Of a DNA stretch of 34,917 bases, positions 4,932-34,917 are shown piece by piece. Source of the stretch: a virus; IMG/VR virus record IMGVR_UViG_3300044858_003969, positions 1-34,917 of that record; one strand, 5' to 3'. Within the stretch, counting starts at the first letter, position 1, and each line of letters begins with the position of its first letter. The notes under the pieces are model-generated. The model saw only the letters and a program-made list of their open reading frames with translations. It was not told where the DNA came from and did no database searches. The translations under genes were made by a program, and so were the position numbers.

Positions 4932-5390
4932 TCAAATCTTTGAATTCAGCAAGTGGTAGGCAACTTCCTCGGGAAGTTGAAAGCCTCGCCCTCTGATTGC
5001 GTAGAGAAACGAAACAAACTCAGCTTCAATTAAATATCCGCTTGATCCGATCTCACTGTTTAAGTGTGTCGCGCAAGCCGATTCAGCAATTCGGTTAATT
5101 GGTGAAATATCAAACTTCCAATTTGAGCAATCTTTTGGCCCCATGTATCTAACCACAAAGAACGGGATTTCTGCGCGGGTCGCTAAATACGAAAGCGCTC
5201 GGATTGTAGGGTGAACTCTTGAAACAGGCCGTGCTCTAAAGTTTTTATATTCAATAATGCCAGCCGGTTTCCCGTAGTCGTATTCGACCATCAGGAAATC
5301 CAAGTCCACAGCAGGACAATTTATTCCCCACTCCCTGTGGCGTTCGCTCAATGCTTGGTCTCTCCACCCTGTTCTTTCTTGAGTAGTCAT
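4932..5390 (-). CDS. Putative PD-(D/E)XK nuclease-fold protein
   Basis: A 152-residue protein. WGINCPAVDLDFLMVEYDYG is followed by GIIEYKNF: acidic residues at 29-31 and an ExK (Glu47, Lys49) on a predicted strand match the PD-(D/E)XK nuclease core. FFVVRYMG then gives another core strand. The gene has clearly lower GC than its neighbours and directly follows a DNA methyltransferase with an ATGA overlap. It could be a structure-specific or Hjc-like nuclease, or a partner of the methyltransferase in a restriction-modification pair. The fold is a motif-level inference and the cleavage target is unknown. Confidence 0.55.
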   Translation of the reverse strand: MTTQERTGWRDQALSERHREWGINCPAVDLDFLMVEYDYGKPAGIIEYKNFRARPVSRVHPTIRALSYLATRAEIPFFVVRYMGPKDCSNWKFDISPINRIAESACATHLNSEIGSSGYLIEAEFVSFLYAIRGRGFQLPEEVAYHLLNSKI

Positions 5391-6610
5391 TTTTTTAATT
5401 GTGAAAATGCTTGCAATGCACGGGCCTTTGCGGTTTCCGCATGAAACGGATCAATGTCGCATCCGACAAATCGACGGCCCAAAGCGAGAGCCGCAACCGC
5501 CGTTGTTCCGGCTCCAAGAAACGGATCGCAAATCAGGTCTCCTGGCTTGGTTAGCCGATCAACCAGATCGACCATTCCGCTCTCGGATTGGCCCCAACCG
5601 TGAAACCGCTTGTCGTTGTCGTTCACCTTACTTATGGCGACATCGCCAAACCATTCGTCTGCTTCACCGAATAACAGAATCGGCTTCCAGAATGTGTTGA
5701 CCTTCGCCTGCCATTGCTGCACCGCTTGGCCGCCTGGGGTCATGTAGGCAAGCGTCCACCGATATTTCAGGTGTTTGCTCATGGCCGCGTAGATTTGCGG
5801 CAGGTAGCTCTGCCCTGCCATGGCCGCAACCACCTTCACGCCAATTTTCGCGCAGTGCCTTGCCAGCTCTTCATAAAGCGGTAAAAACTCCTCTGGGTAG
5901 GGCGGGTCTGTTACAACCGCGTCAAGATGCTCAATGCCTTGGAATAAATCCGCCATCGAGCAAGCCCTGATGTCGCAGACGGACAGGAAGTCAGGAGTGC
6001 TTGCAATTTCCTCAACCGCGTCGCGGAGCTTTTGCTGCTTTTCTTCCCGCTTCTCTTCTTTAACGATGTCCTTATGCGCTTGGTTGATGCTAATTTCTCC
6101 GCTCGCCAGCTTGGCTTTAACTTGCGGAGTCGCTTTGGCTTCGATCTTTTTAACCTTGGCGACGGTGTCGTGTGAAACGCCTGCGATGGCGGCAATTTCA
6201 GCGCGGGTGTCTAGAGGTTGACTTTTTGCAGATTTCTGCAAAAGGTTATCATTCTGCGGCAAGTCTGTGCGCTTGCCTTGCTGACTGCGTTTCGCAATCG
6301 TATCCTCTAAGACAAGCACGAGTTTAGTGCGAATGTATGGCGGGAGATTTCGCCGACCGAATTGGTTACGAATAACCCACTCGATAGCGTGGGATCGATC
6401 ATCGAACACCATCTCCACAGTCTCAAACGGAAGGCCGTGCCGGGTGCAAATCTCGTGGCGATTGTGGCCGTCGATCAGAATGCCGTCCCACACCACCAGC
6501 GGGTCGCGGCACCCATCGCGCAGAATATTGGCTTCCAGTTGGCTGAGTTCGTCAGGCGCTAACGGGGGGATTAGCGCCTTGAACTCTGGGTCGATTATGA
6601 TCGTTTCCAT
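5387..6610 (-). CDS. ParB-like domain fused to beta-class DNA methyltransferase
   Basis: A 407-residue fusion. Residues 1-90 are a ParB/sulfiredoxin-like domain with IDGHNR at 46-51. An HTH follows at about 137-156 with a helical linker to 205. The methyltransferase part has the catalytic DPPY at 235-238 before the AdoMet-binding DPFLGAGTT at 362-370, the order of beta-class N6-adenine or N4-cytosine enzymes. It would methylate specific DNA sites; the target is not readable from sequence. Phages use such enzymes to evade restriction or to time events on their DNA. It lies between the SSB-like gene and a nuclease-like gene. A second enzyme with the same architecture is at 33632-34801. Confidence 0.88.
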   Translation of the reverse strand: METIIIDPEFKALIPPLAPDELSQLEANILRDGCRDPLVVWDGILIDGHNRHEICTRHGLPFETVEMVFDDRSHAIEWVIRNQFGRRNLPPYIRTKLVLVLEDTIAKRSQQGKRTDLPQNDNLLQKSAKSQPLDTRAEIAAIAGVSHDTVAKVKKIEAKATPQVKAKLASGEISINQAHKDIVKEEKREEKQQKLRDAVEEIASTPDFLSVCDIRACSMADLFQGIEHLDAVVTDPPYPEEFLPLYEELARHCAKIGVKVVAAMAGQSYLPQIYAAMSKHLKYRWTLAYMTPGGQAVQQWQAKVNTFWKPILLFGEADEWFGDVAISKVNDNDKRFHGWGQSESGMVDLVDRLTKPGDLICDPFLGAGTTAVAALALGRRFVGCDIDPFHAETAKARALQAFSQLKK

Positions 6611-9513: not shown

Positions 9514-9617
9514 CGGGCGAGCCTCCATGCGATGACCGCCGCGATGGCGACCGGGCCGAATTTAAAAGCCGCGTCGATCGAGTAGCCGAGGCAACGGAGA
9601 AGAGTTTCGCAGTCCAT
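9510..9617 (-). CDS. Tiny membrane-like peptide
   Basis: A 35-residue frame found by hand, MDCETLLRCLGYSIDAAFKF followed by GPVAIAAVIAWRLAR. The second half is a short hydrophobic segment ending in Arg. Its ATG overlaps the end of the HTH gene as TGATG and its TGA overlaps the next ATG. It is at the limit of what can be called a gene, and rests on the perfect junctions. Confidence 0.42.
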   Translation of the reverse strand: MDCETLLRCLGYSIDAAFKFGPVAIAAVIAWRLAR

Positions 9618-9850
9618 CACGCGGCCCTCCTTTTGCGTGTTGGGACCGTCGTGCGGTTCGCGGTGGAGGCGTTCCTATAGCCCCACCAGTCGAGGAAGGA
9701 CTGGCGGACAATGTGCCAGCCACCGCACCGGCCGCGTGGCATCGTCGCCGCAAATTCGCCGCGCCGGATATATTCACGAATGGATCGGCTTGAAAAACCG
9801 GAGAGGCGCTGAGCCTCCGCCATGTCTATGAAAGTCTCGGAGAGGTTCAT
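9617..9850 (-). CDS. HTH/excisionase-like DNA-binding protein
   Basis: A 77-residue protein. Residues 8-60 match the MerR-like winged HTH of excisionases and small phage regulators: MAEAQRLSGFSSRSIREYI, then RRGEF and a GGWHIVRQSFLDWW recognition and wing region. The basic C-terminus is RKRR. The start overlaps the stop of the RHH gene by ATGA. As the second gene of the early operon and about 720 bases from the integrase gene, it may act as Xis, bending attP DNA, or as an early regulator. Confidence 0.72.
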   Translation of the reverse strand: MNLSETFIDMAEAQRLSGFSSRSIREYIRRGEFAATMPRGRCGGWHIVRQSFLDWWGYRNASTANRTTVPTRKRRAA

Positions 9851-10568: not shown

Positions 10569-11588
10569 CTAAACCCTCCACCACGCCCGCCAGTCCGCTT
10601 TGCGAGACGGCACCGCGTAGGTTTTGAGAACCAGAGCCGTCGAGGAATGCCCGAGCTGATGCGCGGTCTTGCCAGCATCCTGGCACCGTCCTAGATGGTA
10701 AGTGGCGTAAGAGTGCCGAAGGGCGTTCTCGGGCAGCATGGCCCACGGCACCAAGCCCGCCTCATTCAAACGCTCGATCAAAGCCTCACGCTCCCGATAA
10801 AGCCGGAGAGATTTCGCCGGCACGATCAGGCCAGATTTTCCTTTAAAGAAATCCTTCCGCTTTTTCATCGGCTCCGTGAAATCCACGATGCGTTCCGGCA
10901 GGCCGGAGGATTGTTTCGAGACCTCCCGCCGAACCTCGATCTGGCCGGTCTTGGGATCGACATCCTCCCACCTCATGCGATGGACCTCGATGGACCGCAG
11001 GCCCGCAAACGCACCCAGCAAAAACCAAGCGCGCAAAGCATCCGACATCTCCGCATCCAGAATCGCCCGGAGTTCCTTCGCCGAGATCAGGGACCGCTTC
11101 GACTCCGCCTCCGGCGCAACCACCCGGCGAAATGGATTCCGATCCAGCAACTCCATGTCCACGCACCACCGAAAAAAACCAGAGGCATATCGATGCCACC
11201 CCGCCCGCGTCGTCGGCGCGCCTTGGATCTTCGCAAACACCCGAGCCGCCTGCATCGGCGTGACCGCCGCCACCGCGCCAGGGAATGCATCCAAAAGCTC
11301 TCCGCAAATCTTTTCCAATTTGTCCCTGTGCCGCTCCGAAGCCCCCGCCTTAGAGGCGATGTAATCCCGAATCGCCGACTTCATCGACATGCCCCTCGCC
11401 TGCTCCTCCGCGAGCGAGTCGGTCCCACCTTTCTGAAGTTTCTCCAGCAACCCCGGCCCCGCCGCCCAAGCCTCGGCCTCGGTCCGGTAAAACCGGCGAA
11501 TGCGACGGCCAAAAATTTTCTGCGGGATCGTCAGCTTCCAAGGCGTCGAAGGCCGCTGCGGGTAAGGTGTCACAAGAAAGGCGCTCAT
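10569..11588 (-). CDS. Tyrosine recombinase integrase
   Basis: A 339-residue integrase for site-specific insertion at a host tRNA-Leu. Residues 1-50 are an arm-binding-like domain, about 68-155 a core-binding SAM-like domain, and about 160-339 the catalytic domain. The catalytic residues are Arg198 (AGLRSIEVHRM), Arg291 (NALRHSYATY, with Asn replacing the usual first His of HxxR), His314 (LGHSS) and Tyr324 (KTYAV). The ATG at 11588 is preferred over a TTG 14 codons upstream, which would place three repeated arm-like sites inside the gene. attP lies directly upstream. The C-terminal style resembles integrases that I associate with Verrucomicrobiota, which is only a weak host clue. Confidence 0.93.
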   Translation of the reverse strand: MSAFLVTPYPQRPSTPWKLTIPQKIFGRRIRRFYRTEAEAWAAGPGLLEKLQKGGTDSLAEEQARGMSMKSAIRDYIASKAGASERHRDKLEKICGELLDAFPGAVAAVTPMQAARVFAKIQGAPTTRAGWHRYASGFFRWCVDMELLDRNPFRRVVAPEAESKRSLISAKELRAILDAEMSDALRAWFLLGAFAGLRSIEVHRMRWEDVDPKTGQIEVRREVSKQSSGLPERIVDFTEPMKKRKDFFKGKSGLIVPAKSLRLYREREALIERLNEAGLVPWAMLPENALRHSYATYHLGRCQDAGKTAHQLGHSSTALVLKTYAVPSRKADWRAWWRV

Positions 11589-11590
11589 GC

Positions 11591-11620
11591 TGTTGCCCAG
11601 ACTTGTTGCCCGTGTTGCCC
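11591..11620. repeat. Arm-type integrase site candidates, left (three TGTTGCCC)
   Basis: TGTTGCCC occurs at 11591-11598, 11604-11611 and 11613-11620, just upstream of the integrase start. The same octamer occurs twice on the other side of the attP core. Direct repeats on both sides of a core are the usual pattern of integrase arm-type sites. Their place before int could also let integrase control its own expression. Confidence 0.65.
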
Positions 11621-11730
11621 AGAATCGCAACTATTTTCTTCCAGTAGCCGCCAATAGCCGCCCGTTGTTTCAAGAAGCCAACCGCCCGCCGAGCCGCATA
11701 AGACCTAGCTCAAATCGTCACAAAGCACTC

Positions 11731-11784
11731 TGCCGGCGGCGGGACTCGAACCCGCACTCCGCTTTCGCGAAAACGGATTTTAAG
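11731..11784 (-). other. attP core: 3' part of tRNA-Leu(TAA)
   Basis: On the minus strand, this stretch reads as a leucine tRNA from its anticodon loop (anticodon TAA at 11780-11782) through the anticodon 3' stem, a long variable arm, the T arm (GCGGGTTCGAGTCCCGC) and the acceptor strand CGCCGGC plus A. The 5' half of a tRNA is missing, and the bases beyond 11784 do not restore the anticodon stem, so this is not a working tRNA. On integration it would rebuild the 3' end of the host gene. It lies between the amidase and integrase genes. Confidence 0.88.
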
Positions 11785-11822
11785 TCGCTTTCTTGGGTTT
11801 GTTTTTCAATGACTTACGGGAG

Positions 11823-11840
11823 TGTTGCCCGTTGTTGCCC
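11823..11840. repeat. Arm-type integrase site candidates, right (two TGTTGCCC)
   Basis: TGTTGCCC occurs at 11823-11830 and 11833-11840, ten bases apart, on the far side of the attP core and touching the amidase stop codon. Same octamer and same direction as the three left copies. Confidence 0.62.
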
Positions 11841-12448
11841 TAAAGAACTTTATTGAGAGCCGCTAGGAGGGCGGCGTGGGCGGCTGGGGAGCAGTCGTTT
11901 TTGCGGCCGGGGGCGATGTCGGCGTGGCGGAGGATGTTTGCGAGGGGAATGTTGTTTTCGCGGAGGATGGGGAGGAGGTATTCGACGGCGGAGAGAAGGG
12001 CGTCTTCGCTCAAGGGCGTTTGGTAGGTGTCGCCTTCCCAGGCCATGCCGATGGAGAAGCTGTTGACATCTTTTCGGCCTTGCCACGAGCTGACCCCGGC
12101 GTGCCAGGTTCGCTGGGTGGGGAGGGCGAGGGCGGTGCGTTTGCCGTTTCGGGCGATTATGCAGTGGTAGGAGACTTTGCTGACGGGATCGCAGCACCAG
12201 GAGACGCTGCCCGCGTAGGCTCCGCTCGTGTGATGCACGATGATGTGGGTGGGCTTGATGACGCGACCCGCTGAAATGTTGGGGGTCCGCTTGTTGGTCT
12301 GCTGATAAAACTTTGGCTCGGGCTTGAGGAGGCCGGAGGTTTTGGCGGGGGAGGTTTTGGGTGGCTTCGCGGGCTTCGGCTCAGGCGCGGGCGCGGGGGA
12401 TTGTGCCGGCTTGGGCAACATGAAAAAGCGGGCGAGGAGCGAGAGCAT
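11840..12448 (-). CDS. N-acetylmuramoyl-L-alanine amidase (endolysin)
   Basis: A 202-residue Amidase_2/PGRP-type endolysin that cleaves the bond between MurNAc and L-Ala in peptidoglycan. Zinc ligands are seen at His72 (IIVHHTSG), His175 (LRHADIAPG) and Cys186 (NDCSP), the T7 lysozyme pattern. The WHAG and FSIGMAWEG blocks are typical. A hydrophobic start (LSLLARFFM) and a Pro/Ala/Lys-rich linker (about 12-45) precede the domain, so it may be membrane-tethered or exported by a signal-arrest-release way, which is not certain. The ATG at 12448 overlaps the lipoprotein stop as TGATG. Confidence 0.9.
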   Translation of the reverse strand: MLSLLARFFMLPKPAQSPAPAPEPKPAKPPKTSPAKTSGLLKPEPKFYQQTNKRTPNISAGRVIKPTHIIVHHTSGAYAGSVSWCCDPVSKVSYHCIIARNGKRTALALPTQRTWHAGVSSWQGRKDVNSFSIGMAWEGDTYQTPLSEDALLSAVEYLLPILRENNIPLANILRHADIAPGRKNDCSPAAHAALLAALNKVL

Positions 12449-12699
12449 CACTTGTCTTTCAGCGCGGGGATGGATTTCTGGAATTCGCCGAATGCGTTCC
12501 AGAGGTCGCGATTCGCGGCTTCGCTTTCGGTCAGGCGTGGCTCAAAGCGGACCGTTGCGCGGATGTGAAGCGTGCCAGCTTCACCGATGCGGTCGCCGAA
12601 AGGAGGCATCGGAACGGCCACGCACGAGGTCAGGAAGGCCATTGCGAGGAAGAGCCAGCCGAGGATCATCAACACGGCGGCGACTTGCTTGGGAGTCAT
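12448..12699 (-). CDS. Small lipoprotein, o-spanin candidate
   Basis: An 83-residue protein with a signal peptide (VLMILGWLFLAMAFLTSC) that ends in a lipobox, LTSC, with Cys26 as the lipid-modified residue. The mature part is short and soluble. In a lysis cassette between holin-like and amidase genes this fits an outer-membrane spanin subunit, with a possible inner partner at 12895-13164. The start overlaps the previous stop by ATGA. The lipobox is clear; the spanin role is inferred. Confidence 0.65.
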   Translation of the reverse strand: MTPKQVAAVLMILGWLFLAMAFLTSCVAVPMPPFGDRIGEAGTLHIRATVRFEPRLTESEAANRDLWNAFGEFQKSIPALKDK

Positions 12700-15899: not shown

Positions 15900-16793
15900 T
15901 TAGTAAGTTCCGCCGTCGATGCTGGCCTCGAGGCTGTCCAGGCGTGCGTCGAGCGCGTCGTCTGCACTGGCGCGGGCTGTTGCCTCTGCCGTGATATTCG
16001 TCTGCAAGCTGGTGTCGGCAGAAGCGCGGGTGGTGGCTTCGGCTGTGATGTTCGACTGCAGAGTCGTGTCAGCGCTGGCGCGGGTTGTCGCCTCGGCGGT
16101 GATGTTCGACTGAAGGGTCGTGTCGGCGGCTGCGCGTGCGGACTCTTCGGTGTTGATGTCGGCCTCTGCTGCGGTGACGCGGGAGGCGAGGGCTGTCGCG
16201 GCGGACTCAACGGTGTCGATGCGGCCACCGAGGGCGGTGTCGGCATTCGTGCGGTTCGTGACTTCGGCTGCGAGAGCGGCGTTGTTCGAGGTGACATACC
16301 CGGCAAAGGCTGTGTCGTTAGTCGTGTCGACCGAATTGATCAATGTGACGATCTCGGCGAAGCTGTCCTTGTCGGCATCAGCGGCGGAGAGAATCGCATC
16401 GATGCGGCCTTTTTCCGTGGCGATCTTGCCGTCGAGGGTTGTGTCCGCTGCGGAACGAGCGGATGCTTCGGAGGTGACAGCGGCGGCGCGGTCGATGATC
16501 TCTTGAGCGAGGTTTGCGGCTACAACGCCTTCGGCTGCGGTGGCGCGGCTGATCTCGGAATTGAGGTTGCTGGTGAGGGTCGAATCCGCTGCGGAGCGAA
16601 GCGAAGCCTCGGCTGCTACGGCGTCAGAAACGAAGGTCTTCTTTGCGAAGATGTGCTCGCCGCCGATTGGCAGGACGCCTTCGGCTGTGCCGATGAAAAA
16701 TGACTTGTTTGTGGAGTCGAAGGCTACTTCCCCGACTTGAAGCGACACCGGCGAACCGGAACCGCGCTTGATGCGAATGATAGGATTGGGCAT
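15900..16793 (-). CDS. Coiled-coil tail fibre with Mtd_N-like head
   Basis: A 297-residue protein. Residues 1-45 (IIRIKRGSGSPVSLQVGEVA, FFIG) match the Mtd N-terminal fold. Residues 60-280 are almost pure coiled coil built of related units with pattern AxxxRxxADxxLxxxI; the last three are 18-residue repeats that are nearly identical. The end (LDSLEASIDGG) is a short cap. This would form a long trimeric fibre. The leader upstream of its ATG is AC-rich (CCAACCACCACC) with no Shine-Dalgarno. Confidence 0.75.
   Translation of the reverse strand: MPNPIIRIKRGSGSPVSLQVGEVAFDSTNKSFFIGTAEGVLPIGGEHIFAKKTFVSDAVAAEASLRSAADSTLTSNLNSEISRATAAEGVVAANLAQEIIDRAAAVTSEASARSAADTTLDGKIATEKGRIDAILSAADADKDSFAEIVTLINSVDTTNDTAFAGYVTSNNAALAAEVTNRTNADTALGGRIDTVESAATALASRVTAAEADINTEESARAAADTTLQSNITAEATTRASADTTLQSNITAEATTRASADTSLQTNITAEATARASADDALDARLDSLEASIDGGTY
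15960..16121. repeat. Three 54-bp tandem repeats in fibre gene
   Basis: Each unit encodes TTLQSNITAEATTRASAD or a near copy, in residues 225-278 of the fibre. The units are similar at DNA level too, so they arose by tandem duplication. Copy number could change by recombination and alter fibre length. Confidence 0.8.
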
Positions 16794-19200: not shown

Positions 19201-19667
19201 GAAAAGACAAAAGTTGGAGGAGTGACATCTGGGCCAAATCCAAAATTTTCCGTATGTGCAGTAAATTCGACTCCATTTATTGTATACGCGACATCTGCAC
19301 AGGTTATTGGGAACGGAGCGTCGGTTGGGCAACATAACTCGGCAGGCCCGCTAGCCATTGTATTCTCGAAATTATCAGCCCCGAATGAAAAGCAATTTGT
19401 TAATGCCGACAGCGCGCAAGTATAAAAGGTTGCATCTGGAAATTCTCCAATCTGAAAAACGGCAAAAAATCCTCCGCCGCTTGCGTTAAAAGTTGTCGGC
19501 GAAGCCCCATTACAAGTGCCAGTTGTTGCATTTCTCATCGTTTGCAATAGGTCTCCACTTATAGCCGTATCGCACCCGCACCCCCCACAACACGCGCACT
19601 CGACAGCGCGAAGGCCGCCGCCGGTTTTGATTTTGATGGCTCCGGAGGATGTGCGGCCGAGGGTCAT
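19197..19667 (-). CDS. Cys-rich tail-region protein
   Basis: A 156-residue protein. ECACCGGCGC near residue 23 and further Cys at about 51, 83, 91, 112, 113 and 122 give an unusually Cys-rich protein, likely disulfide- or metal-stabilised. The body is beta-rich and Thr/Phe/Ala-rich. GC is lower than in the flanking genes. No family recognised. Position between the tape measure and the fibres suggests a tail tip or baseplate part. Confidence 0.6.
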   Translation of the reverse strand: MTLGRTSSGAIKIKTGGGLRAVECACCGGCGCDTAISGDLLQTMRNATTGTCNGASPTTFNASGGGFFAVFQIGEFPDATFYTCALSALTNCFSFGADNFENTMASGPAELCCPTDAPFPITCADVAYTINGVEFTAHTENFGFGPDVTPPTFVFS

Positions 19668-19679
19668 TTTTTGAAGTCA

Positions 19680-19714
19680 GAAGGATGAAGGATGAAGGAT
19701 GAAGGATGAAAAAT
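19680..19714. repeat. Tandem heptamer GAAGGAT
   Basis: GAAGGAT is repeated four times from 19680 to 19707 and followed by a degenerate copy GAAAAAT. It lies in the 83-base gap between the 90-residue and 156-residue genes. A second set of near repeats (TTTCCGGT, TCAGGTTTCCGG) follows at 19717-19745. Looks like a short intergenic repeat of host type. Confidence 0.85.
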
Positions 19715-19750
19715 CTTTCCGGTTTCCGGTCTCAGGTTTCCGGTTTTGCA

Positions 19751-27927: not shown

Positions 27928-29019
27928 TTATGCCTTGGAAATTTTGGAACGGTGCTGCCAGATGGCGGCTTTGTGTTTCTCGAAGAGGGCCGAGGCGGTT
28001 TTGCGGTCTCCGGCTTCCACGGCGGCGATGTATTCGGCGACGGGGTCGGAGGCTTCGGGGCTGGCGTTGTCGATGACTGGGACGACGCGGGCGGCGGAGA
28101 GGCCGAGGCTGCGCTCGAGGCGTTGCAGGGCTTCGCGCTCGGTGTCGAGTTGGGCCTTGTAGCTGCGGGCTTCGGCGAGGGCGCCGTCGCGCTCGGCGAG
28201 GGCGGCGTTGTATTTGGCAAGGATCTGGTCGGCGGCGGCGATCTTGGCGACGGGGGTCTCGATGACTTCGGGCTCGGGGGTGGGCTCGGCTTCGAGGACG
28301 GGCTCGGCGGCGGGCTCGGCGGCCGGGGCTTCGACAACTTCGGGGGCGTTTTCGCTGACGACGGTGTCGAGGATTTCGACCTCGGGCTCGGCGGCGGGTT
28401 GGGTTTCGGCTTGGCTCTGCATAGATTTTGCCTTGGCGAAGGTGTCAAATCTCTCCCTGAGTTGGGCGGGGGTTGCGGTGGCCGCGGCAGCGACGCCTTC
28501 CTCGATGGCGTCGGCGAATCCGAGGGCGACGGCTTCTACGGCATCAAGCCAGGTTTCGGCGTCCATCATCTCGGCGATGCGGTCGGCCTCCATGCCTGTT
28601 TTCCGCACATAGGCGTTGCGGAGGGAGTCTTTGAGTTTGTCGAGGAGGTCGGCTTCGCGGCGTAGCTGGTCGCTGTCTCCCATGCTGACGGTCCACGGGT
28701 TGTGGATCATGAGGAGAGCGTTGTCGGCGATGTAGACGGGAGCGCCGGCCATGGCGATGACCGAGGCCATGCTGGCTGCGAGCGCGTCGATGTGGACGGT
28801 CAGACCGCCTTGGTGCCGCCGGAGGGCGTTATAAATGGCCGTTCCCTCAACCACGGACCCACCGGGCGAGTTGATGCGAAGGTGGATGTGCTGGCCGTCG
28901 AGCTTGCCGAGGTCGGCGAGGAACTCTTTTGACCCTGCGCCAAAAGCACCGACTTCATCGTAGAGGTGAATCGTTGCCGTGCCGTCGTTGGATTTTTCCA
29001 ATGCATAGAATTTGATCAT
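27928..29019 (-). CDS. ClpP-like capsid maturation protease with scaffold tail
   Basis: A 363-residue protein from the ATG at 29019, coupled by ATGA to the portal gene. Residues 1-200 are a ClpP-type serine protease: NSPGGSVVEG at 50-59, catalytic Ser83 in ALAASMAS and His106 in LLMIHNPW. Residues 210-270 are rich in Glu, Pro and Ala, followed by a helical, coiled-coil-like end with a basic tip. This is the lambda gpC/Nu3 design, where the scaffold is part of the protease. A shorter internal scaffold start, such as the MQSQAET Met near 200, is possible. Confidence 0.88.
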   Translation of the reverse strand: MIKFYALEKSNDGTATIHLYDEVGAFGAGSKEFLADLGKLDGQHIHLRINSPGGSVVEGTAIYNALRRHQGGLTVHIDALAASMASVIAMAGAPVYIADNALLMIHNPWTVSMGDSDQLRREADLLDKLKDSLRNAYVRKTGMEADRIAEMMDAETWLDAVEAVALGFADAIEEGVAAAATATPAQLRERFDTFAKAKSMQSQAETQPAAEPEVEILDTVVSENAPEVVEAPAAEPAAEPVLEAEPTPEPEVIETPVAKIAAADQILAKYNAALAERDGALAEARSYKAQLDTEREALQRLERSLGLSAARVVPVIDNASPEASDPVAEYIAAVEAGDRKTASALFEKHKAAIWQHRSKISKA

Positions 29020-31931: not shown

Positions 31932-33635
31932 TCAGTTTTTCAAGATGTGCCAGGCGACATGGCAGAGTTTCACGGCGTCCATGTAGTGATCCTGCGCCAC
32001 GGATTTCCAGACGAACTCTTGGCCGGTGGCGGTCTTGCGGGGCACGAGGCGCTGGCCGCTCATACCGCGAAGGAAGTCCTCGGTGGTGTCGCGTGGGATG
32101 GCGAGCGGGGGCTTGCCGTTGCGGATGCGGTCAATGAAGAGTTCGGTTTTGATGGCGTGGTCGACGAAGGTGTAGAGCACGACGCCGGGGAAGTCGTCGA
32201 TGACGGTGCGCCCGATGCGGCTGCCGAAGGTGGCGCCGGAGCCTTTGGCGGCGTGCCAGAATCCGGCGCTGACTTGGCAGGCGGTGTAAACGCGGAAGGT
32301 GGCGAAGCCGGAATCCATGAGGCCGCACTCGGGGCGGACTTCCTGCCCGCTGGGTGTGCGGTAGATGCGGCGGGGCGAGTCGGCGAGGAGGTCTTCGATG
32401 GTGAGCGTGGTGCCGTAGTCGAGGACATAGCTCTGGCCGTTGGCGTCGAAGGCGACCGTGGTCCAGTGCTGTTTGTCTTGGCCGATGTCGGCGCAGGTGA
32501 CGATGTGCGCTGGCTCGATCGGGCAGGTGCCGCGCGTGTAGTCGCCGCGCAGGCTGAGAATGTTGGCGTCGCCGATGCTGGTCTCGACCTGCTCCCACGG
32601 CATGGCCATCGTGCTGTTCGTGAAATCTTGGAGGCCGTTGAGCGTGTCCTTGTCGCGGAGGAATTTCACGGCGAGCGCGCCGAAGGTGCAGGAGCGCCAC
32701 GGCGCGTAGAGGGAATTAAGGTGGAAGCTGCGAAAGCCGCGCTGGGCGCTGGCGTTTGTGGCCTGCCATTTGCCGTCTTGGAGGGCTTCGATCTTCTGGC
32801 CGTCGTTCCACTCGCCTCCGCACCGCTGGCAAATGTAGCGCGCGGATTCTTCGACGCGGGCCATGTTCCACTTGCCGGCCACTTTCGCGTCGGTGTCCCA
32901 CTTCACCTGTTCCCACAAAAGCTCGATGCGCTCGTGGCAGTGCGGGCACTCGAGCATGAATTTTTCCTGCGTGCCTTTCTGGTATTCCTGCCAGATCGCG
33001 CCGTCGGGCGTGGTGGGCGTGCTGGTCTTGACGCGAAGCGCGCCGACGAAGGACTTGGTGCGGTTCTCTGCGAGGAAAAGCGCGGAGGTTTCTTGGTCGG
33101 TCTCGCGGGCGAATTTGTCCACCTCGTCCATGAGCAGGAGACCAGCGGGGCGGCTGGCGAGGTTCGCCGGGGAGTTGCTGCCGACGAAGACGAGCGAGCA
33201 CCGCGAAAAATGCTGCTCGAGGTTTTTGAATCGGTGCCGGTCCGCTGGCTTCTGAGCGGCGAGCGTGGCGCTGTCGTCGAATAGCGGGAGCCAGCGGGTT
33301 TCGGAGAACGATCGGGCGAGGCCTTCGGTGGGCATGACCCACACGACCGGCTGCGGCTTGTTGACGATGCGCCAGGCGGTGCCTGCTTGCACCATCGTGG
33401 TCTTACCGGTCTGCGTGCCGAATACGAGCACGAGGTCAGAAACATCGACATCGCCGAAGCACTCGAGCGGCTCGCGGAGGTAAGGCGTGAGGCGTGTCGA
33501 AAATGCTCCGGGCATCTGCGTTTGCCGCTCGCTCAATATCACTTCGTCAGCGCACCACTCGGTGACGGTGCGCCGGTCAATCGGTGCGTAGATCGAGCGC
33601 AGGTGTTCGCGTAGGGCTTCGGCGGCGGGAGTCAT
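31932..33635 (-). CDS. Terminase large subunit, GpA family
   Basis: A 567-residue packaging ATPase-nuclease from the ATG at 33635 (ATGA overlap with the methyltransferase). Walker A is GTQTGKTT at 73-80; Walker B is LLLMDEVDKF from 166. Cys pairs in LECPHCHERI and RYICQRCGGEW make a zinc-like site usual in GpA proteins. CADIGQDKQHW is the first nuclease-domain acidic motif. GpA-type enzymes cut at cos sites in lambda, which suggests cohesive-end packaging here, but no cos is proved. Confidence 0.94.
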   Translation of the reverse strand: MTPAAEALREHLRSIYAPIDRRTVTEWCADEVILSERQTQMPGAFSTRLTPYLREPLECFGDVDVSDLVLVFGTQTGKTTMVQAGTAWRIVNKPQPVVWVMPTEGLARSFSETRWLPLFDDSATLAAQKPADRHRFKNLEQHFSRCSLVFVGSNSPANLASRPAGLLLMDEVDKFARETDQETSALFLAENRTKSFVGALRVKTSTPTTPDGAIWQEYQKGTQEKFMLECPHCHERIELLWEQVKWDTDAKVAGKWNMARVEESARYICQRCGGEWNDGQKIEALQDGKWQATNASAQRGFRSFHLNSLYAPWRSCTFGALAVKFLRDKDTLNGLQDFTNSTMAMPWEQVETSIGDANILSLRGDYTRGTCPIEPAHIVTCADIGQDKQHWTTVAFDANGQSYVLDYGTTLTIEDLLADSPRRIYRTPSGQEVRPECGLMDSGFATFRVYTACQVSAGFWHAAKGSGATFGSRIGRTVIDDFPGVVLYTFVDHAIKTELFIDRIRNGKPPLAIPRDTTEDFLRGMSGQRLVPRKTATGQEFVWKSVAQDHYMDAVKLCHVAWHILKN

Positions 33636-34801
33636 GCGAGGCGCTTGGGTTCTTTGCCGGTGGCATCGACCCATCGCTGGATCGCCACGGCGACATAGGC
33701 GGGGCTGATCTCAATGGCGCGGCATTTGCGACCAAGCTGCTCGCAGGCGATGATGGTTGTGCCGGAGCCGGAGAAGGGTTCGTAAAAAATCGCGCCAGGA
33801 TTGAATGAAAGCCTTTCAATGAACCAGCACCACAATTTCACAGGCTTAGGGCATGGATGGTCAATGTCGCCAGAATTTGCTGGCGTATTCATATCCACTG
33901 CATCTGGTCTCCCGCCGTTGCCTGTCGCCAAAGACGGACACTTGCCGTAACATAAAAATGGTTGCCAGCAATTAAAACCCCAAGACGAACGCAGTTGACC
34001 ACCACCGTAAAACCAACACATCACCCAATCTGCCTCAGGATAAATCCAAGCGTTAGTCACACCGGGCGAAAATACGACGGCTTTGCAAATTTTTCTGGCA
34101 ATCGGCAACCAACCTTTCGCTAACTTTTCAAGATTCGCCCGTGAATCGTCGTGCTGGTCATAATTATTTTTCCCGCTTTCTTTGCCTTTCCCTAATCCGT
34201 ATGGCGGGTCTGTCAGGCAAACATCAGCATTCTCCCCACCCATCACCCGATCCACATCCTCCTTCTTCGTGCTATCCCCGCACAGCAACCGATGGTCGCC
34301 AAGCTCCCAAAGCTGCCCAGGCTCGACGCCCCACTTGGCGCGGAGTTCTTCGGCCTTGTCGATCTGCGGCTCGGCGTCGGCGTCCGAGGTTTCGGGTTCG
34401 TCCGCCATGTCGAGGTCGGCGAGGTCTTCAGCGCCGAATCCGATCTCGGCAACATCGACATCAAGAGCGGCGAGATCCGCCAGCTCGAGCTTCAGCATTT
34501 CCTCATCCCACCCGCCGCCGATCTCGGCGAGGCGGTTGTCGGCGAGGATGTAGGCTCGGCGCTGCGTGTCGGTGAGGTGGCCGAGGCGGATGCAGGGGAC
34601 GGTCTCGAGGGCGAGGGATTGAGCGGCGAGCACGCGGCCGTGACCGGCGATGATGCCGTTGTCCTTGTCGATCAAGACGGGGTTGGTGAAGCCGAATTCT
34701 TTTATACTTCCGCACAACTTTGAGATTTGAGCAGCGTCGTGCTTTTTCGCATTTCTGGCATAGGGGATGAGGTCGGAGGTTTTGAGGTGTTCGATGGTCA
34801 T
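33632..34801 (-). CDS. ParB-like domain fused to beta-class DNA methyltransferase (terminase-linked)
   Basis: A 389-residue protein from the ATG at 34801, which overlaps the small terminase stop across the contig junction. IIAGHGR at 50-56 marks a ParB-like N-domain. An acidic stretch (about 100-155) links it to a methyltransferase with LTDPPYG (DPPY 198-201) and then YEPFSGSGTT (341-349), beta class. It likely methylates adenine N6 or cytosine N4. It lies exactly between the small and large terminase genes, with ATGA overlaps on both sides. The middle part has lower GC. The start at 34840 would run into the small terminase. Confidence 0.9.
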   Translation of the reverse strand: MTIEHLKTSDLIPYARNAKKHDAAQISKLCGSIKEFGFTNPVLIDKDNGIIAGHGRVLAAQSLALETVPCIRLGHLTDTQRRAYILADNRLAEIGGGWDEEMLKLELADLAALDVDVAEIGFGAEDLADLDMADEPETSDADAEPQIDKAEELRAKWGVEPGQLWELGDHRLLCGDSTKKEDVDRVMGGENADVCLTDPPYGLGKGKESGKNNYDQHDDSRANLEKLAKGWLPIARKICKAVVFSPGVTNAWIYPEADWVMCWFYGGGQLRSSWGFNCWQPFLCYGKCPSLATGNGGRPDAVDMNTPANSGDIDHPCPKPVKLWCWFIERLSFNPGAIFYEPFSGSGTTIIACEQLGRKCRAIEISPAYVAVAIQRWVDATGKEPKRLA

Positions 34802-34917
34802 ATGGCTTTTCGGATGATGGTCGTGAGGTTGTCGGCCCACTCGGCAAGGGTGGCTTCGATGGTTTTCTGCGGTTGGCCGTGCAGCCGGGTGGCGAGGGTC
34901 TTGGGCATGACTTCGAG
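34791..34917. repeat. Terminal direct repeat, right copy
   Basis: Identical to bases 1-127. Together they show that the contig is circular. Annotation of the small terminase (ending at 8) and the methyltransferase (starting at 34801) must be read across this join. Confidence 0.95.

Follow-up and report, generated by a model that had tools for sequence, protein, structure and literature searches.

A probable phage attachment site with a tRNA-Leu(TAA) core and five direct octamers, and a candidate two-residue code for octamer recognition by the adjacent integrase

Arm sites set the direction and specificity of phage integration and are unknown for most integrases. In the phage genome analysed here (hereafter the window, the whole stretch of 34,917 nucleotides), positions 11591–11840 occupy the gap between the integrase and endolysin genes, both located on the minus strand. 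They can be assigned with high confidence to the attP of a temperate Verrucomicrobiota phage, composed of a tRNA-Leu(TAA) core and five octamers that would act as arm-type sites of the integrase. The elements of this region are as follows:

11731..11786, minus strand: attP core of 56 b, the 3' part of tRNA-Leu(TAA) from the anticodon stem-loop to the acceptor end
11778..11784, minus strand: anticodon loop CTTAAAA, probably the 7-b overlap region in which crossover takes place
11591..11598, minus strand: right-arm octamer 1, GGGCAACA in the direction of the integrase gene, 2 b before the integrase ATG
11604..11611, minus strand: right-arm octamer 2
11613..11620, minus strand: right-arm octamer 3
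11823..11830, minus strand: left-arm octamer 4
11833..11840, minus strand: left-arm octamer 5, the last base of which is the end of the endolysin ORF

Read on the plus strand, the octamer is the word TGTTGCCC, starting at 11591, 11604 and 11613 as well as at 11823 and 11833 and pointing in one direction throughout. The original observation of three plus two equally oriented copies around the core was thereby confirmed, and putative direct-repeat arm sites (two left, three right) flank the tRNA-targeting core on both sides. Seven copies of TGTTGCCC are found in the whole window compared to 1.39 expected from dinucleotide shuffles, none of which (0/100) reached seven, and in 60 simulations with matched composition the densest cluster per 250 b contained two copies. 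A chance origin of the cluster was ruled out by these shuffles and simulations. Two more octamers lie outside the attP on the minus strand (12413–12420 and 19327–19334), with a chance expectation of about 1.4 per window. Neither TGTTGCCC nor GGGCAACA was matched as an arm motif in the literature searched. The first and the last 127 b of the window are identical, which shows that the assembly closed into a circle and that the site represents an intact attP rather than a prophage end.

The genes relevant for recombination at this site, and the ORF at its far border, are:

10569..11588, minus strand: tyrosine integrase of 339 aa (ATG at 11586–11588), PHROG 1 integrase, lambda Int fold
11385..11588, minus strand: predicted N-terminal arm-binding domain of the integrase, three strands and a helix
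11496..11504, minus strand: codons of R29 (11502–11504), I30 and R31 (11496–11498), which covary with octamer bases 3 and 4–5
9617..9850, minus strand: small excisionase-like protein, candidate directionality factor (phrog_66, E 9.5e-5)
11840..12451, minus strand: endolysin/amidase ORF bordering the attP opposite the integrase

Among 15 members of the integrase family, R198, K225, R291 and Y324 are invariant, while the catalytic HxxR motif carries Asn288 instead of His in all 15; some members of the family lack the second catalytic H/W. PF00589 matches 29/29 members, with the window integrase just below the curated cutoff. The best full-length fold match of the integrase is lambda Int. In the AF2 prediction, the N-terminal domain consists of strands 5–8, 17–21 and 30–34 followed by a helix (residues 37–54), with pLDDT values mostly above 80. 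A comparison of this domain with the Pfam arm-binding families gave no match, and a search of the domain alone against solved structures yielded nothing clear, the best match (Z 4.7) being an AP2 domain. The arm domains of lambda and Tn916 were not among the fold matches listed for it, which excludes neither.

The genome also encodes a terminase, a portal protein, a tape measure protein, a helicase, a Sak4-like annealing protein and the small excisionase-like protein, a gene set expected of a temperate tailed phage. No DNA-level relative was present in the phage collection, where a protein search retrieved integrases at only 19–34% identity. Two proteins of the window (5387–6610 and 33632–34840) combine ParB-like with DNA methyltransferase matches. 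Adjacent heptamer repeats, GAAGGAT and TTTCCGG with 4.4 copies each, are situated between ORFs at 19680–19746, and a 54-b tandem repeat (15960–16159) and a GGGCTCGG-rich stretch (28270–28400) are each located inside a long ORF.

Comparison with related elements revealed that the octamers, whose absence from relatives with the same integrase would have spoken against arm sites, are retained. In close relatives (integrases 86–96% identical), four to five exact copies were found in 57/57 contigs covering both arms; the spacing between two octamers varies by no more than 4 b, and the octamers and the core rank with the most strongly conserved stretches of the region. Relatives with 46–73% integrase identity also keep these octamers. 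Divergent members display other words, namely GGACAACA, GAACAACA, GGACAAT, GGGCTACA, GGGCCACA, GGGTAACA, TGGCACAA, TTGGCACT and TGCCACAA. For 24 divergent members, chosen as representatives below 80% identity, an exact tandem octamer is present at the integrase start in 21 (shuffles: 0.155, maximum 2). Moreover, in 18 of the 19 members with an attP-type arrangement the far arm repeats the octamer of the near arm; swapping arms between elements gave a mean of 6.2 matching pairs, and 18 was reached in 0/5000 permutations. This agreement implies that both arms are rewritten together. The core, by comparison, varies separately: GGGCAACA occurs with Leu(TAA) as well as Leu(CAA) cores, GGACAACA with Ser(CGA) as well as Leu(TAA) cores, and two members at the same tRNA-Arg(ACG) carry different octamers. 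Judged from these sequences, the octamer follows the integrase and is independent of the tRNA used.

Similar arrangements were observed elsewhere. In five contigs (L069, L074, L128, L139 and L181), a remote integrase (22% identical) is preceded by three copies of GGGCAACA, and TGTTGCCA is found twice beyond a different tRNA-like core. Unrelated integrases (L267, L266, L272, L273, L274) likewise show an exact tandem 8-mer at their start (TAGTTACC, CATGCACA, TGGCAACA and others), a set which includes the Akkermansia phages Chambord and Moulinsart. Many matches of a triple-octamer scan proved to be simple tandem repeats within coding regions and were discarded; the matches in G134, G250 and G359 were likewise discarded, judged by their regular period. 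Viral scans starting from L222 and L217 gave no useful relatives, and a scan with the Arg clade mostly returned the Ser group again.

The variation among octamers is mirrored by two residues in the N-terminal domain of the integrase. In all 109 unique loci (109/109), the residue at position 29 agrees with octamer base 3, Arg occurring with G (85 loci) and Lys with A (24 loci). Residue 31 agrees with bases 4–5 in 104/104 loci, where Arg is found with CA (94 loci) and Lys with TA, CT or CC (10 loci). The remote integrase of L069, 22% identical in its C-terminal part, has the sequence GKRYR and is likewise associated with GGGCAACA. About 20 loci missed by the start-codon rule were inspected by hand and are outside the 109-locus count; in this later set 21 loci were concordant (R29 with G, octamer TTGGCACT), and L428 is an exception, combining R29 with base C. 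The proposal derived from these data is a β-strand code in which residue 29 sets base 3 and residue 31 sets bases 4–5, with both arms rewritten together and independently of the tRNA; we consider it about as likely as not. As read from the alignments, R29 would appear to specify G and K29 to specify A, while R31 would appear to specify CA and K31 to specify TA, CT or CC.

Residues 29 and 31 may instead be lineage markers only, which follow the octamer through shared ancestry or through joint transfer of attP and N-terminal domain and take no part in recognition; we regard this as a real, if somewhat doubtful, possibility. On the tree of the catalytic part only three changes of residue 29 and four of residue 31 were counted, all concordant with the octamer but not numerous enough to give a significant sign test (p 0.5), and, since the arm sites adjoin the N-terminal domain, both could move as one block. 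Such a joint transfer, however, would itself suggest co-function, and the change crosses clades (L218 versus L221, L222 and L224). Moreover, across 32 representatives (90% identity), column 29 stands alone among the two-state columns in predicting base 3 without error; column 266 is also error-free, but has eight residue types. Bases 4–5 are predicted best by column 31. Both residues are placed at i and i+2 on the predicted third strand of the domain, an arrangement that speaks against mere descent.

It is very improbable that the octamers bind excisionase or another phage protein in place of the integrase N-terminal domain. The genome does contain an Xis-like gene, and Xis sites are likewise direct repeats in att regions; the octamer bases, however, track single residues of the integrase N-terminal domain. 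The Xis-like gene of the window is located downstream of the integrase gene, unlike the arrangement in L352 (1240–1500) and relatives such as L367, where a small Xis-like ORF (MKGTITVKEAAELTG...) is found between the right-arm octamers and the integrase gene.

There is similarly little to recommend the view that the octamers serve as operators of the integrase gene, recognized by a repressor or by the integrase itself, and are not recombination arm sites. Three of them are located within about 35 b upstream of the integrase ATG, and autoregulation through binding to arm sites is known from KplE1-type prophages (PMC2951348). The remaining two, however, are located on the other side of the core, at a distance of about 240 b from the start codon, and vary together with the near ones; furthermore, no sigma-70-type promoter was detected in 11550–11900. 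Autoregulation is in any case compatible with arm function, and integrase autorepression has been proposed for arrangements of a tRNA followed by the integrase gene (PMC2951348). Given the position of three octamers at the start of its gene, the integrase may also repress its own synthesis.

The octamers are very probably integrase arm sites, in line with the original reading of the region as an attP with arm repeats, which is supported by their retention in relatives and by the adjacency to tRNA genes; the assignment of the integrase as the binding protein is based on the covariation.

The match between the attP core and host tRNA genes runs from GACTTAAAA, the anticodon stem-loop, to the acceptor end. 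This confirms the extent originally described, with a length of 56 b instead of 54. A functional phage tRNA was ruled out by the missing 5' half, and a captured or decaying tRNA gene used as such by the phage is exceedingly improbable, because, despite the near identity of 56 b to host tRNA genes, ARAGORN detected no complete tRNA in the window and an identically truncated core is found between arm repeats in all relatives. Rfam gave a chance match only. The best full-length matches of the core are tRNA-Leu(TAA) genes of Verrucomicrobiota (55/56, one mismatch) in the order that includes the metagenome-assembled genome (MAG) G302. A 45-b part of the core matches exactly in one GTDB genome, a Spartobacteria MAG of the same order, where it is situated inside an intact tRNA-Leu(taa). 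On the basis of the tRNA-Leu(TAA) matches, the host very probably belongs to this order of Verrucomicrobiota, and probably to the Spartobacteria group.

For the expected insertion next to a tRNA-Leu(TAA) gene, host genes with one mismatch exist; no close relative of the window was found in the integrated state, and the exact attB is therefore inferred from the 55-of-56 match. As to insertion at other sites, all examined members with at least 59% identity contain a tRNA-Leu(TAA) core, whereas more distant ones contain the cores of other tRNAs or are situated next to those tRNAs.

The integrated form, an intact tRNA followed by the integrase gene with a copy of the core at the far end, was observed in relatives only. 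Relatives of the integrase with 36–56% identity are present in six genomes out of 213 from the order of G302, and no further ones emerged at high score from 387 sampled genomes of the phylum. At seven loci an intact tRNA (Ser, Arg or Leu) directly precedes the integrase gene in the predicted orientation, including L220, where tRNA-Leu(TAA) is followed by a broken integrase gene; the bacterial genomes show the order intact tRNA, tandem octamer, integrase gene. One bacterial genome, G095 (L216, L220–L225), contains at least six integrases of the family, two of them broken, at tRNA-Ser, Leu(TAA), Leu(TAG), Arg(ACG) and Arg(TCT).

G302 itself contains an attP with a tRNA-Ser core, whose exact 58-b partner is part of an intact tRNA-Ser(cga) on another contig. 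MAG G436 has an integrase that is about 50% identical; its contig C78 displays the core, the right arm and the integrase gene, while contig C411 runs from the left arm (TGGCACAG twice) through the same core into bacterial chromosome, where it encodes a protein that we take, from its sequence, to be DnaN-like. Both contigs agree over about 62 b and diverge exactly at the 3' end of the tRNA. C411 is the expected junction of left arm, core and bacterial chromosome (attR-type). G436 and G036 each have a dnaN gene in the vicinity of tRNA-Leu(CAA); however, the relative orientation differs between the two, and synteny of the junction is therefore not claimed. The far att end was not found for G171:C2 and the G095 contigs, which are too short or have a second core that is only 75% alike.

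The following mechanism can be envisaged. Upon integration, the host tRNA-Leu(TAA) gene would have its 3' end replaced by the core, with the crossover probably taking place within the anticodon loop. The N-terminal β-sheet domain of the neighbouring tyrosine integrase would bind the five direct GGGCAACA octamers, two left and three right, and octamer bases 3 and 4–5 would be read by residues 29 and 31 of one β-strand. By analogy to lambda (PMC4880445), the N-terminal domain may grip an octamer while the rest of the molecule grips a core half-site, so that one integrase could bridge arm and core sites simultaneously. After integration, the rebuilt tRNA would be followed by the right arm and the integrase gene, with the left arm at the other junction. 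The small Xis-like protein may favour excision.

The attB of lambda is not a tRNA, and the lambda arm sites differ in sequence from the octamers. Nevertheless, lambda Int, a heterobivalent integrase (PMC4880445; PDB 1z1b, 1z1g), shares with the window integrase an N-terminal arm-binding domain, which is predicted here, and the overall fold. Mycobacteriophage Pixie (Cluster K; PMC3203893) has the same attP layout, with a tRNA core and two plus three direct arm sites beside the integrase gene, but differs in integrase, arm sequence, tRNA (tRNA-Lys) and an extra inverted site, and few sequences were compared there. In its relatives CrimD and Anaya, base changes in the arm sites are paired with N-terminal residues 17 and 19 (PMC3203893), which are also spaced i and i+2, like residues 29 and 31; the idea of a code is thus not without precedent. 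The 283-b attP of ICEMlSym(R7A), a conjugative element and not a phage, likewise has five arm (P) sites next to the integrase gene (intS), of different consensus (TGKTGGTATC) and all reported to be needed for efficient integration (PMC11963761). For the IntF/IntB prophages of Oenococcus oeni, with direct repeats of another sequence (two and four on the two arms), coevolution of arm repeats with the integrase N-terminus was proposed, single residues not being assigned (PMC8074189). The architecture of the attP is thus already known from lambda, Pixie and ICEMlSym, and the two-residue code is the new, testable part.

The integrase family provides about nine naturally occurring octamer variants together with the matching integrases. 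Arm sequence, tRNA target and integrase residues differ among them with enough independence for a directly testable code to be proposed, and two named residues, 29 and 31, are available for swapping. In addition, the tRNA cores link numerous unassigned phages from metagenomes to Verrucomicrobiota. If the code holds true, arm sites and cross-reactivity between phages would be predictable from sequence alone.
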